From positions 477,652 through 541,651 of the forward strand of contig NZ_JAAOEN010000001.1 in assembly GCF_011320225.1 (NCBI RefSeq): 64,000 nt of DNA, given 5' to 3'. Below, one piece after another: positions 11,171-42,102 of the stretch. Positions within the stretch are counted from its first letter, which is position 1. Every line of letters starts with the position of its first letter. The notes beneath the pieces were generated by a model. The model saw only the letters and a program-made list of their open reading frames with translations, was not told the DNA's origin and searched no databases. This DNA is from Phytoactinopolyspora limicola. GTDB lineage: Bacteria > Actinomycetota > Actinomycetes > Jiangellales > Jiangellaceae. The position numbers were made by a program, and so were the translations under genes.

Positions 11171-11215
11171 TGATCGTTGCCGGATCTCAGCTCTCAACCC
11201 CATGATCGTTATGGG
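11171..11215. repeat. TGATCGTTGCCGGAT repeat and CCCAT/ATGGG hairpin
   Basis: TGATCGTTGCCGGAT at 11171-11185 also occurs in the arms of the large palindrome at 19.8 kb. A small hairpin (11199-11203 with 11211-11215, seven-base loop) follows. The pair lies in the convergent gap between the racemase-like and stress-protein genes, where it could serve as a two-way terminator. Confidence 0.6.
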
Positions 11216-17994: not shown

Positions 17995-18022
17995 ACGTCA
18001 GTACCGAGACGGGAGTGTAGTC

Positions 18023-18670
18023 GTGGGTAAGCGTGCCGAAGCCTTGGAGCTCGCCGTCCTCGGCCTGCTTCACGACGGCCCGCTGCACGGCTACGAACTC
18101 CGAAAGCAGGTGAACTCCCTGCTCGGCTGGGGTAGAGCGTTCTCCTACGGCACGCTGTACCCCACGTTGAAAGACATGGTTCGGCGCGGACATCTGGCCG
18201 AGGACGAGACTGTGGATAGTCCGGGAGCGGCCCGCAGCGGCCGACGCAGCCGGATCGTCTACAAGCTCACTCCAGAAGGTAAAGAACACTTCGTCGAGCT
18301 ACTCAGCGAGGCGGGTCCATCGTCGTGGGACGACGAACGCTTCGGCGTCCACTTCGCCTTCTTCGGCCGGGCCGATGCCGACACCAGGATGCGAATCCTC
18401 GTCGGCCGCCGGTCTAGGCTCCAGGAGCGCCTGGAGCAGTTTCGCTCTGCTCTGAATCGCACCCGCGAACGGCTTGACACTTACACGCTCGAGCTGCAAC
18501 GACACGGCTTGGAGTCGGTCGAGCGCGAGGTCAAGTGGCTCGACGGCCTCATCAGCGCGGAGCAGCGCACCACCACACCAGAAGTTGATCATGCGCGGGG
18601 ACAGGATCCCCGCTCGAACACCGGTTCGGGGCCGGATAACCCCAGTCACCAAGAAAAGGAGAAGAGCTGA
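18023..18670 (+). CDS. PadR-family transcriptional regulator of ino1
   Basis: Product of 215 residues: the PadR winged helix at the N-terminus ([20 protein letters not shown], then [17 protein letters not shown] and [14 protein letters not shown]) and a longer C-terminal dimerisation region with a coiled coil ([22 protein letters not shown]) of the PadR_C2/Vir type. GTG 18023 has a GGGAG site eight bases upstream. The stop overlaps the ino1 ATG (TGATG). A PadR-type palindrome at 17968-17994 over its own start site implies autoregulation and control of inositol synthesis. The same padR-ino1 pair is found in mycobacteria and Streptomyces. Confidence 0.92.
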
Positions 18671-19749
18671 TGAGCTCGCTTCGGGTAGCCATCATCGGCG
18701 TCGGGAACTGCGCCGCCTCGCTCGTTCAGGGCGTTCATTACTACCGCGACGCCGACCCGGCCGCCAAGGTTCCGGGCCTGATGCATGTGCAGTTCGGCGA
18801 CTACCACGTCCGCGACATCGAGTTCGTCGCGGCGTTCGATGTCGACGCCAAGAAGGTCGGACAAGATCTCGCCGACGCCATCGGCGCCAGCGAGAACAAC
18901 ACCATCAAGATCTGCGACGTTCCCCCCACCGGCATTACCGTTCAGCGCGGGCCCACCCTCGACGGGCTCGGCAAGTACTACCGCGAAACCATCACCGAAG
19001 CCGACGGTGATGCGGTCGACATCGTCGAGACGTTGAAGGCCACCCGCGCCGACGTGCTGGTGTGCTACCTGCCGGTCGGCTCCGAGCAGGCCGCGAAGTT
19101 CTACGCCCAGTGCGCCCTCGATGCCGGTGTCGCCTTCGTCAACGCCCTCCCGGTGTTCATCGCCGGCACGAAAGAGTGGGCCGACAAGTTCACCGAGGCC
19201 GGAGTGCCAATCGTCGGCGACGACATCAAGTCGCAGATCGGTGCCACCATCACCCACCGTGTGCTGGCTCGCCTGTTCGAGGACCGCGGCGTAACCGTCG
19301 ACCGCACTTACCAGCTGAACGTCGGCGGCAACATGGACTTCAAGAACATGCTCGAGCGCGATCGCCTGGAGTCCAAGAAGGTCTCCAAGACGCAGTCGGT
19401 CACCTCCCAGCTGGCCAACGGCCTGGAAGACCGAAACGTCCACATCGGCCCGTCTGACTACGTCGCCTGGCTGGACGACCGCAAGTGGGCATTCATCAGG
19501 CTCGAAGGCCGCAATTTCGGTGATGCGCCACTCAGCCTGGAGTACAAGCTGGAGGTCTGGGACTCCCCCAACTCCGCTGGCATCATCATCGACGCGATCC
19601 GCGCGGCCAAGATCGCCAAGGACCGCGGAATCGGCGGGCCGATCCTGTCGGCGTCCTCGTACTTCATGAAGTCGCCGCCCGAACAGTACGCCGACAGTGT
19701 CGCGCGGGATCTCGTCGAGAGCTTCATCGCTGGCGAGATCGAGCGCTAG
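18670..19749 (+). CDS. ino1: myo-Inositol-1-phosphate synthase
   Basis: Product of 359 residues, matching the short actinobacterial form. The NAD-binding N-terminus [16 protein letters not shown] is followed by [28 protein letters not shown], the [17 protein letters not shown] motif, [12 protein letters not shown] with catalytic-site lysines in [11 protein letters not shown], and [20 protein letters not shown]. It converts glucose-6-phosphate to inositol-1-phosphate for phosphatidylinositol and mycothiol synthesis. Its start overlaps the padR stop by one base, so the two are co-expressed. The 19.8 kb palindrome lies 22 bases after the stop. Confidence 0.98.
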
Positions 19750-20176
19750 CCCGGCCGTTCAACCCTCCGGCCCAGTGATCGTTGCCGGATTTCTGCCCCC
19801 AGCCCCGGTGATCGTCGCCCAGATGGGGTCGCTATAGCGACCTGAAGCTGGCGACGATCACCGGGAGGTTGGGCAGAAATCCGGCAACGATCACTGGGGC
19901 TGGGGTAGGTTGAGCCGTGGTCGGCCCACCACGTACGCCGTCATCAGCAAATGCGTAGTTCGCCCCAGTTACTGGCACGTGGCATCGAGCGTTTGGCCCA
20001 CTCGACTACCATTCGATTGTCCGGCTTATCGGTCGTCTATTGACAGAGCGGGTACGAGACAGCCAGCGTCGACTATTGTCCCGTGTCCTGTCGCCATGTT
20101 GGTCGGCGGCCGTGAGGGATCTCGCGCGATCCACGCGTGAGGTCCGGGGACGCCAGACCAAGGGAGGATAAGTTCG
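19750..20176. other. Intergenic region between ino1 and the conservon
   Basis: No gene is seen. The left part is filled by a 128-base inverted repeat; the right part should hold the promoter for cvnA, where a TTGACA occurs at 20040-20045 but no good -10 at normal spacing was found. An AGGGAGG ribosome-binding site is at 20161-20167. Confidence 0.6.
19771..19898. repeat. 128-bp inverted repeat
   Basis: Left arm 19771-19819 is nearly complementary to right arm 19850-19898 (about 49 bases each, with a few mismatches in the middle), and the loop itself contains a smaller palindrome, TCGCTATAGCGA, at 19829-19840. The arms include GTGATCGTTGCCGGAT and GTGATCGTCGCC, linking it to the repeats at 11.17 kb and 1.7-2.6 kb. 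It may act as the ino1 terminator but is far larger than needed. Confidence 0.9.
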
Positions 20177-23155
20177 ATGACGCGGACCGCGCGAGGCCGC
20201 CGGGGGACAAGCGCCGACCCGAAAAGAGCGCGTACCACCCAGGACTCCTCCGAGCGTGCCCAACCGCCACAGGCGGGTGGCCGCGAAGACTCCCGTCCGA
20301 CGTTCTGGCACACCCTGCTCCATGACCGCAGCGTCCGTTCTCGTGTCGCTGCCCTCGTGATCGTGCCGCTGCTGGGCACACTCATCCTGGGCACCTTGTT
20401 CTTCAAGAACGCGTTGGACGACGCCGGATCCGCCGCCGAGGTCGAGCGGCTCGCCTCGGTCGGCATAGCCGCCACCGATCTCCTCCACCGGATCCAGGAC
20501 GAGCGCGACATCAGTGGTATGGCCGAGGCCGACGCGACCGGGGTCAGCGCGGTGGCGGAGGCGCGGGACAACACTGACAGCGCGGTCCAGCGGTTCCGGG
20601 AGCAGCTCGGAGACGTCCGGTCCGCCGGCGGTGGGGCAGCCGTACTGGCCGACGCGTTCGAACAAGACATCGCCCAGCTCCAGGACTACCGCTCGGAGCG
20701 TGACGCGGCAGAACCGGCCTTCGACGCCGGTGGAGCCGCGGCCTACCACGAAGTAGCCGAGTCGGTCCGGGCTATCGTCACCGCCTCCGGCCTGGTGGTC
20801 GACGACGGCGAGACCACGAGGCTCATCAGCGGTCTGGACAACATCTCCCAAGCCGTCGAAGCCGCGTCCATGGAACGCGCGCTCGTCGCGTACCACCTGG
20901 ACCCCGGAGAGTCGGCGTCGTCCGCACTCACCACCAGCGCCGTCGTCTATCGCGGCCAGCAGGATCTCCTGCTCGGACGTTACCTGACCAGCATCGACGA
21001 CCCCGCCGTGGCCGACTCCGTCGCCAGCCGGCTGGCCGGGGCCGACGACCTCACCACCGACACCTTGGACGCGATCCGCGCCGGCGATGACGTCGGGCAG
21101 TCTCACGACGAATGGTTCGCCGCCGCCACCGACCGCCTCGATACGCTCCGCTCCGTCGAGAACGAGGCCGCCGAGAACGTCGTCAGCGAGGCTTCCAGCG
21201 CCGCCAACGGTGCTCGGATGACGGCCATCCTGAGCGCCGTCGCGGTGCTTCTAGTCCTAGGTCTCACCGTCTTCCTCACCGTCGTGGTCGCCCGCTCCAT
21301 CGTCGGCCCGCTACGCCGCCTGCGAGGAGCCGCCGAGCAGACGGCCACCCACGACCTCCCGACCGTCGTCGAGCGGATCCAACGAGATGGCCCCGCCGCC
21401 GCGACCGATCTGGACTCGTCGAGTGAGGTCATCACCGCGGAGGGCGACGACGAGATCGGCGCGGTCGCGAAGGCATTCAACGACGTCCACGCGATGGCCG
21501 TGCGGATCGCCGGCGACCAAGCGCTGCTGCGCCAGAACCTCGACACCATCGTGGTCAACCTGTCTCGCCGGACCCAGTCGCTCGTCGACCGGCAGTTGGG
21601 CGAGCTCGAAGGACTCGAGCAGCGTGAGCGTGATCCTGATCAGCTCAGCGCCCTGTTCCGGATCGACCACATGGCCACCCGCGTCCGCCGGCACGCCGAG
21701 AGCCTGCTGGTGCTGGCCGGCGTACAGGAAATGCGCAAGCAGACGTCGTCGGCACCGGTATTGGACGTCGTCCGGACCGCCGTGGGAGAGGTCGAGCAGT
21801 ATCCCAGGGTGAAGTTCGGTGTTATGCCCACCGATCTGGTGTCGGCCAACGCCGTCGACGACATCGCCCACTTGCTGGCCGAGCTCATCGACAACGCCAC
21901 CGAGTTCTCCGCACCGTCTACGCCGGTACGCGTCACCAGCCAGCCCCTGCTGGGCGGAGGTCTACGCATCCAGGTCACGGACAGTGGCCTAGGAGTCCCC
22001 GCGGACCAGCTGGAGATGCTCAACCAGCGGCTGGCGGACGTCAGCGACATCGACGTCGCCACGTCCCGCACCCTCGGCCTGTACGTCGTCGCGCGGTTGT
22101 CGGCCAAACACGGCATCCGAGTGCGTCTCGAACCAGGTGCTTCCGGAGGCATGGTCGCCCAGGTCGACCTCCCGGCCAACCTCATCCACTCACCGCTCGA
22201 CTCCGAGGTCGACCTCCCGGGCGCGCCGGCCACCAATCAGTACGACCCACTCACCGCTCCGGCCCATGACCACCTGTCCACGCCGTCACGTCCGGCCTAC
22301 CCACCGCCGGAGCCCACCACGGACCCATTGGGCCGGCCAGCCGCGGCACCCACCCCTGAGCCCACACGTTTCTCGCCCGCGGCGCCATCGGCCCGGCCGG
22401 CACCCGAGCCACTCCACAGCGCACAGGCGTTCACCCCGGAGAGCACGCAGGCCTTGACCCCGGAGAGCACGCAGGCCTTCAGTCCGGCCACCAGCCCGGC
22501 CGAAAGCACCGGGCCCATGTTCCCCTCGGCGAGCTCCGACCAAGCACAGGGAGATTCGCCGATCTTCGAGTCGGTCCGCTCGGCCTGGTTCGGCGGCGAC
22601 AAGAGTTCCGACTGGTCGAGCCCGGCCGACGCGGGCTGGAAGCGCGCCGCCGAGGTCCTCCGCAGTGCCGAAGAGGCAGCCGCGGCGCGCTGGAGCCAGC
22701 CACCGGCCCAGCAGCCCACCCAGCAGCCGGGGCAGCTTCCCGCGCAACCATCCACCCGTCCACCGAGCCACCGCCGGGCCCGCCCGCCCGCCGCGGGCAC
22801 CGAGTGGCCGGCCAGCCCCAGCCCGTCCAGTCCGGCCGAACCCACGCGGGTCGACGCCAGCGCCCCCGCCGGCACTCCCGTCGGCACCGCCGGTGTCGCC
22901 GGCACGGCCGAGAATCCGGCGGTCAACGCAGCCGGATTGCCGGTTCGCCGACGCGGAGCGTCGCTCGTACCCGGGTCGATTTCCGAGCAACCAGAATCTC
23001 AGGCAAAAACTCGGCGGCCCACGCCTCCCACAAAGAGCGCGGACTCCGTATCATCCACACTGGCAAGCTTGCAGCGCGGTGTTGGTCGCGGGCGTCAGGA
23101 AACCGGTGGCTGGGTCCCAAAGCGGCCCAGTGACCCCGAGAGGAGCAGGCAGTGA
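20177..23155 (+). CDS. cvnA: Conservon sensor kinase-like protein (CvnA type)
   Basis: Product of 992 residues. Two membrane helices (about 58-80 and 348-372) flank an extracellular helical sensor of the nitrate/nitrite type (RIQDERDISG). A HAMP-like linker, a helical region and a HATPase_c domain follow, with the N box LIDNATEFS near 570 and DSGLGVP near 608. The C-terminal third is a Pro/Ser/Thr-rich tail with the short repeat ALTPESTQA. A typical phospho-acceptor H box is not clear, as usual in CvnA proteins. ATG 20177 follows AGGGAGG. Its stop overlaps the next gene by GTGA. Confidence 0.92.
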   Translation: MTRTARGRRGTSADPKRARTTQDSSERAQPPQAGGREDSRPTFWHTLLHDRSVRSRVAALVIVPLLGTLILGTLFFKNALDDAGSAAEVERLASVGIAATDLLHRIQDERDISGMAEADATGVSAVAEARDNTDSAVQRFREQLGDVRSAGGGAAVLADAFEQDIAQLQDYRSERDAAEPAFDAGGAAAYHEVAESVRAIVTASGLVVDDGETTRLISGLDNISQAVEAASMERALVAYHLDPGESASSALTTSAVVYRGQQDLLLGRYLTSIDDPAVADSVASRLAGADDLTTDTLDAIRAGDDVGQSHDEWFAAATDRLDTLRSVENEAAENVVSEASSAANGARMTAILSAVAVLLVLGLTVFLTVVVARSIVGPLRRLRGAAEQTATHDLPTVVERIQRDGPAAATDLDSSSEVITAEGDDEIGAVAKAFNDVHAMAVRIAGDQALLRQNLDTIVVNLSRRTQSLVDRQLGELEGLEQRERDPDQLSALFRIDHMATRVRRHAESLLVLAGVQEMRKQTSSAPVLDVVRTAVGEVEQYPRVKFGVMPTDLVSANAVDDIAHLLAELIDNATEFSAPSTPVRVTSQPLLGGGLRIQVTDSGLGVPADQLEMLNQRLADVSDIDVATSRTLGLYVVARLSAKHGIRVRLEPGASGGMVAQVDLPANLIHSPLDSEVDLPGAPATNQYDPLTAPAHDHLSTPSRPAYPPPEPTTDPLGRPAAAPTPEPTRFSPAAPSARPAPEPLHSAQAFTPESTQALTPESTQAFSPATSPAESTGPMFPSASSDQAQGDSPIFESVRSAWFGGDKSSDWSSPADAGWKRAAEVLRSAEEAAAARWSQPPAQQPTQQPGQLPAQPSTRPPSHRRARPPAAGTEWPASPSPSSPAEPTRVDASAPAGTPVGTAGVAGTAENPAVNAAGLPVRRRGASLVPGSISEQPESQAKTRRPTPPTKSADSVSSTLASLQRGVGRGRQETGGWVPKRPSDPERSRQ

Positions 23156-42042: not shown

Positions 42043-42102
42043 CCCCATGATCATTGGCTTCTAACTACCGGATCCGGTAGTTAAAAGCCAATGATCATGG
42101 GG
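42043..42102. repeat. Near-perfect 60-bp palindrome downstream of parB
   Basis: The two 30-base halves are complementary apart from one position, centred on GGATCC at about 42070-42075, so the stem can close almost without a loop. It begins one base after the parB stop (42104, minus strand), so it is probably the parB terminator. The outer CCCCATGATCATT resembles the 11.2 kb repeat. Confidence 0.9.

Follow-up and report, generated by a model that had tools for sequence, protein, structure and literature searches.

The inverted repeat that follows ino1 in Phytoactinopolyspora limicola is, at slightly better than even odds (a probability of about 0.55), a solo, non-autonomous copy of a dispersed, REP-like element that has a nuclease of homing type as its partner, rather than a transposase. 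Palindromes of this kind are scattered through the genome and bracket nuclease genes; the pairing of gene with palindrome is gene-specific; differing and inverted units occupy the same place in related genomes; and stems change species-wide. The window referred to below is the whole stretch of DNA analysed, 64,000 nucleotides long. G000 is the organism's own genome and G001 that of its sister species; loci carry the prefix L. The features with positions in the window are these:

18670–19749, plus strand: ino1, an open reading frame named from an earlier note on this DNA, without a family search; its stop codon lies 25 bp upstream of the element
19775–19894, no strand assigned: full family-A palindromic element, 120 bp, with outer ends GTGATC...GATCAC
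19775–19807, plus strand: left outer 33-bp unit, the inner half-site repeated at 33-bp spacing
19808–19861, no strand assigned: 54-bp core, GTGATC-N14-GTCGC-N4-GCGAC-N14-GATCAC, the unit counted genome-wide (here G000:C1:497459-497512)
19828–19841, no strand assigned: central palindrome GTCGCTATAGCGAC, read from the sequence
19862–19894, minus strand: right outer 33-bp unit, from the sequence and the half-site positions
11171–11215, plus strand: half copy of family A, degenerate, with profile E values of 2e-5 and 1e-4 on the two strands
42043–42102, no strand assigned: palindrome belonging to a second family, B (CCCCATGATCATTGGC...), which has a gene of its own type (L175) elsewhere, between two B palindromes

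The inverted repeat with an inner palindrome that the earlier note had pointed out after ino1 is real, and far beyond chance. Complementarity around the element extends to 19764–19905, giving arms of 71 nt each (19764–19834 and 19835–19905), 80% complementary, that meet at the GTCGCTATAGCGAC centre with no spacer. When folded as RNA, 19751–19920 reaches −134.6 kcal/mol; 200 shuffles averaged −71.0, and none did as well (z −12.5). The element has four TGATCGTYGCC half-sites, at 19776, 19809, 19850 and 19883, the last two on the minus strand, with spacings of 33, 41 and 33 bp, so that each side of the inner palindrome has two of them, 33 bp apart. An Rfam search of 18000–21500 found nothing at gathering score; the only match, mir-3937 at 19777–19893 (38.6 bits against 84), is a chance hairpin resemblance, and loose annotation might report mir-3937 there.

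Family A is dispersed. The core pattern GTGATC-N-GTCGC-N4-GCGAC-N-GATCAC, searched exactly with the N gaps free from 10 to 20, occurs 75 times in the organism's own genome and 14 times in G001 (reversed control, 0), and was absent from 391 other sampled genomes of the class, in a search for the exact pattern that misses diverged copies. The core measures 54 bp, the length that follows from gaps of 14, in 20 of 20 among the matches listed, and the usual design adds an extra 33-bp arm on each side. Some copies (L041, L029, L014, L036) have further outer units in tandem, at one end or at both. BLAST of the own genome, for which 40 of 190 first-look candidates were scored, found many copies, the matches across most of the query being 72 to 85% identical; among 59 relatives, BLAST matched family A in G001 alone. 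A covariance model built on 38 copies gave 143 matches in the own genome, both strands counted, with a best E of 3e-29, and 134 in G001, with a best of 1e-21. At E 0.001 it matched 10 of the 22 genomes of the taxonomic family; in the eight besides these two the matches were much weaker (best 1e-6, 2 to 32 matches). Plasmids searched held no family-A element, and a 19-mer scan of one genome per species, in which the organism's own record was possibly absent, returned nine single matches in unrelated bacteria.

In all 38 aligned copies, each of the four half-sites has GTGATC without variation, and the stem letters beside it covary (GTTGCCGG/CCGGCAAC, GTTAGCGG/CCGCTAAC and others). With at most one mismatch, TGATCGTYGCC occurs 31 times in the window (7.5 expected); exact, it occurs 427 times in the own genome against once for the reversed control. 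The arm sequence had earlier been thought to recur at 11.17 kb and in a nest at 1.7–2.6 kb. The former recurrence holds, as the degenerate half copy listed above. The latter holds for the 11-bp motif, which is exact at 1778 and 2390 and has one mismatch at 2461, 2479 and 2550, but not for the palindromes of the nest, whose stems are other than those of family A. One of them, at 1856–1923, belongs to another family (ACTTCGCTACCGCCAGATGG...), the stem of which is also present in L078 and L103, with related sequence beside L019; no partner gene was identified for it. At 2456–2565 and 1984–2032 are CACCTGATCGTCTCC palindromes and ACAAGGACGCTTACTG repeats, again with stems unlike family A.

That the repeat might be a mobile, MITE- or REP-like palindrome had also been proposed. 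The proposal is partly borne out: the palindrome is dispersed and REP- or MITE-like, with 75 cores and no fixed place at ino1, but neither a Y1 transposase in the genome nor a target-site duplication was found. A MITE, derived from a DDE transposon with terminal inverted repeats and target duplication, would supply the inverted repeat and the many copies; we consider this origin very improbable. Around 59 full and 16 short family-A copies there is no target-site duplication of 2 to 9 bp above chance, and the 151 ORFs beside 79 family-A cores contain no recurrent transposase-like cluster, the clusters being judged by eye from one sequence each. Low-GC3 ORFs were dropped from this comparison, apparently the partner gene too, as none of the ORFs matched its profile, and so it bears only on enzymes other than the partner described below.

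Classical REP or BIME sequences moved by a RAYT (Y1 tyrosine transposase) resemble the present elements in copy number, extragenic position and imperfect stems. Here they are scarcely credible: the Y1_Tnp/RAYT family (PF01797) has no member in the own genome, which is 99.45% complete, in a search whose control was positive in 5 of 14 genomes, and the REP tags GTAG and CGTC are absent at the foot. The feet here are TGATC or TGATGG, and the elements about 48 to 128 bp. The gene linked to the palindromes, and bracketed by them, is instead one for a nuclease of AbiEi/DUF559 type. The likeness to the REP/REPIN-RAYT systems (TnpA-REP; REPtrons) is otherwise close: in both, high-copy extragenic palindromes have species-specific stems and conserved feet, and a gene is bracketed by the same palindromes. 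The partner differs, being a gene for an AbiEi-type, Vsr/DUF559-like nuclease and not for a Y1 HUH transposase. CGTC-tagged REPs are, according to PMC3733652, also palindromic repeats with no known transposase or RAYT partner; the present elements share that lack, and differ in their tag and in having a candidate partner gene.

Family-A cores keep almost entirely to the spaces between genes: 77 of 79 distinct cores with known surroundings are intergenic, and the other two lie at an edge and within a called ORF, the gene calls being those of a simple custom script. Such a distribution would suit a bidirectional terminator, or an mRNA 3'-end stabilizer under selection, whose good hairpins were copied by gene conversion; so would the share of cores between convergent genes (22 of 79, compared with 13 of 90 background gaps). 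That share is close to the convergent share of intergenic bases (8209 of 31607), however; the preference is weak. The ino1 palindrome has no T-run after either arm in the flanks as read, and thus lacks the mark of an intrinsic terminator; GGGGCTGGGGTAGG stands directly 3' of the right arm. In family-A stems, with strands not oriented by transcription, G-T mismatches (308) are no more frequent than A-C mismatches (332), contrary to what selection on RNA would give; the balance fits pairing at the level of DNA rather than RNA. This explanation also leaves the pairing with nuclease genes unaccounted for, and we judge it unlikely.

It draws some support from what follows ino1 in other genomes. Homologs of ino1 are present in 13 of 13 genomes searched, the own genome included, and of seven relatives from the same taxonomic family whose 3' flanks were read, four (G002, G003, G004 and G005, of another genus) have a TGATC-ended palindrome there, a different one with TGATCA-type ends and other stems. 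G006 and G008 have no TGATC-ended palindrome in this flank, and the sister species has an ordinary hairpin only. The family-A palindrome after ino1 is therefore neither single-copy nor conserved in place, as it would be were it a fixed 3' feature of this gene, and yet palindromes with such ends recur there.

Other places were compared in the two sister species. Family A is present in both, with differing stems, at L010/L123, at L012/L117, and at L030:3938 and 5178/L121; a more similar copy has been retained in both at L089/L119 (0.91 identical) and L090/L118 (0.77). Elsewhere the own copy is matched by nothing in G001 (L002/L160, L109/L150) or by another palindrome (L030:2311/L121, L104/L163), and at L004/L149 about 1 kb lies between the flanks in G001, so the site was left unclassed. 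In the four differing-stem comparisons, the own copy resembles 35 to 54 of 77 other copies in its genome more closely than it does its G001 counterpart. Inner half-sites are mostly TCGTTGCC (52 of 156) and TCGTCGCC (22) in the own genome; in G001, TCGTGAGC is commonest (20 of 34). Stems have thus changed across each genome.

The gene that accompanies family A in the own genome (G000:C12:364124-365137; L030:4125-5141) encodes a protein of about 340 aa and is bracketed by two copies of family A, the left arms of which are nearly identical. At the equivalent place in G001, between genes taken by eye to be those for fumarase and a DUF255 protein, there is a single solo element and no nuclease gene. 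The N-terminus of the own protein matches AbiEi_4 at the cut-off (25 bits), and its DUF559 score is 16 bits against a cut-off of 20.6. Among 26 aligned relatives, and allowing E up to 1, AbiEi_4 is matched in 24, DUF559 in 21 and REase_MTES_1575 in 20; PADLOC AbiEi models match all 26. Invariant in all 26 are G231, S234 and E237 (S-x-x-E), D268, E279, H286 and R298. Against the PDB, the profile finds 3hrl, an endonuclease-like protein, at E 6e-4. Its match to the mobile intron protein 3r3p, which we take to be I-Bth0305I, is at E 0.77, not significant and among other chance-level entries. NCBIfam had no match for four of the nuclease proteins. From these profiles, the partner is a predicted nuclease, with an AbiEi-like winged-helix N-terminus and a C-terminus that is weakly Vsr/DUF559-like, of the PD-(D/E)XK kind.

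Association between such genes and palindromes is strong across Actinomycetia. The own genome has nine nuclease loci. In one (L167) the gene lies between two family-A copies, and in three others (L168, L175, L177) each paralog lies between two copies of its own, different palindrome, the stems of which are also present away from nuclease genes (families B, C and D). Two more (L170 and L171; families E and F) have one large palindrome at the gene, and an exact-string search of 426 kb found no dispersed copies of either; at the place of L171, G001 has a short gap and no gene. In all, palindromes with shared 9-mers lie on both sides of 17 of 67 nuclease loci (12 among 37, and 5 among 30 from other families), and 26 of the 37 and 13 of the 30 have a palindrome on one side or both, at a distance from the gene of no more than 300 bp. 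The 254 control genes, drawn from two genomes (the 64-kb window and 400 kb of G001), have a palindrome on either side in 44 cases, on both sides in one, and with shared 9-mers in none. Ten of the 22 one-sided loci have a recognizable second copy, one that scores at least 20 when no more than 5 of 132 other flanks score as high; the remaining loci do not qualify.

In 10 of the 17 two-sided loci, no more than 5 nt separate the last sense codon from the edge of the palindrome downstream; in 8, the gap between upstream palindrome and gene, with start codons of our choosing, measures 61 to 70 nt. The palindromes therefore look like the ends of a unit. We lean, if only slightly, toward a complete unit made up of a palindrome, a leader (often 60 to 140 nt), the nuclease gene, and a palindrome at or near the stop codon.

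The genes might be passengers, nonetheless. Some other activity—a transposase acting in trans, template switching, or gene conversion—might spread the palindromes, and mobile genes might simply land there; IS elements are known to target REPs (PMC1525189). The nuclease activity is a predicted one, and 28 of the 67 loci have no palindrome by our detector, L169, L176 and L178 of the own genome among them. We regard this as possible, but rather unlikely. Four own genes pair with four different palindrome families, and homologs in other genomes (L180, L181, L229) keep the same kind of palindrome; nor does the own genome offer a Y1 transposase, or the neighbours of the cores a recurrent transposase-like cluster, to do the spreading.

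Related palindromes go with related nucleases. The nearest two homologs of the own gene, one in G001 and one in genus g6, lie between GTGATCG...CGATCAC palindromes, which in g6 are a pair of identical 54-bp copies, and L177 and L229, of different taxonomic families, have a common palindrome type (score 33). A pair of B palindromes brackets the own B gene, and another pair its syntenic counterpart in G001, with stems particular to each species. The match is not always complete: between the commonest G001 stem, TCGTGAGC, and the palindromes at its closest nuclease (GTCAGTG, GACAGTG), only the ends agree. Protein similarity correlates with palindrome similarity over 39 genes (rho 0.42; 0 of 2000 permutations), a correlation that arises largely through loci inherited in place, several of them in g3, and is inflated by them; the closest homologs in G001 and g6, and the pair L177 and L229, suffer less from this. 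One stem from the units of genus g3, allowed as many as 3 mismatches, is present in all 12 g3 genomes and in none of 10 from other genera (controls, 0 or 1). Its half-sites number 38 in G010, 27 in G014, 2 in G013 and 1 in G021; G020 has four, and no nuclease match at E 1e-10.

Two close species, G017 and G018, have different units at one place. The flanking DNA is 93 and 96% identical over about 1.4 kb on each side, and the genes between are inverted with respect to one another. Protein identity is 65% overall, 50% over the N-terminal 150 residues and 82% over the C-terminal 150, and their palindromes have different stems and common feet. Flank similarity enters the palindromes and fades inside them, not at their edges, and so the exact ends of the unit are not proved. 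In this one case the DNA-binding half of the protein and the palindrome differ together and the nuclease half is kept. A second inversion, L183/L186, involves a unit with the same palindrome and proteins 81% identical, and could be explained by recombination between the palindromes. One further chromosomal place holds different nuclease–palindrome units in three genera, in both orientations; both flanks are common to L187, L191, L206 and L207, and one flank to L190 and L192.

How might a nuclease spread a palindrome? If the partner protein is what its domains suggest, it would recognize its own palindrome and cut it, either as duplex or as an extruded hairpin, and repair would copy the whole unit, or just a palindrome, into the cut site. 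The gene would in this way spread into palindrome-bearing sites, in either orientation because the palindrome is symmetric. Loss of the gene would leave solo palindromes behind, and stems would become homogenized. Copies that stand alone, that after ino1 among them, would be relics or by-products, and any effect on ino1 transcript ends secondary. A cut-and-copy mechanism of this sort would explain the two orientations, the turnover at fixed places, the solo copies, the missing target duplication, and the homogenization of stems.

More broadly, and more tentatively, we suggest a widespread selfish unit of actinobacteria in which a nuclease and its own palindrome replace a transposase and its terminal inverted repeats. 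The palindrome would serve as target, end and scar, and cutting would drive insertion in either orientation, turnover of units, seeding of solo copies, and the concerted change of stem and DNA-binding half. This would be a route by which bacterial palindromes spread without a transposase. It offers a specific candidate partner gene for repeats in a large bacterial group, and gives a likely role to a protein family that was matched here only to an antitoxin and, weakly, to unknown-function and nuclease models. If each nuclease reads its own palindrome, these proteins would be a ready-made set of sequence-specific nucleases with candidate targets.

Two known systems invite comparison. Free-standing homing endonuclease genes of the EDxHD/Vsr-like kind are similar in the nuclease region, to judge by the weak match noted above, and in being present or absent at one place. 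They differ in that the presumed target here is a dispersed palindrome, which also forms both ends of the unit, in that there is no intron or intein, and in the AbiEi-like N-terminus. The antitoxin AbiEi, of the type IV toxin–antitoxin system AbiE, shares the N-terminal AbiEi_4 domain; the present protein, unlike it, carries a nuclease-like domain as well. A literature search by title and start of abstract, with sparse coverage of subscription journals, found no paper on palindromes bracketing DUF559 or AbiEi-type genes.

The nuclease gene is present in 20 of the 22 genomes of the taxonomic family (E 1e-10) and, at E 1e-20, in 33 of 55 genomes chosen from other families. Viral contigs, searched with six peptide patterns from one protein, held no such nuclease, and no homolog was found in phages. 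The sole plasmid homolog found lies on pmega_4 of Rhodococcus ruber (L279, 55503–56453); it is 31% identical, is annotated as a hypothetical protein, and has cell-wall and mycolic-acid genes for neighbours.
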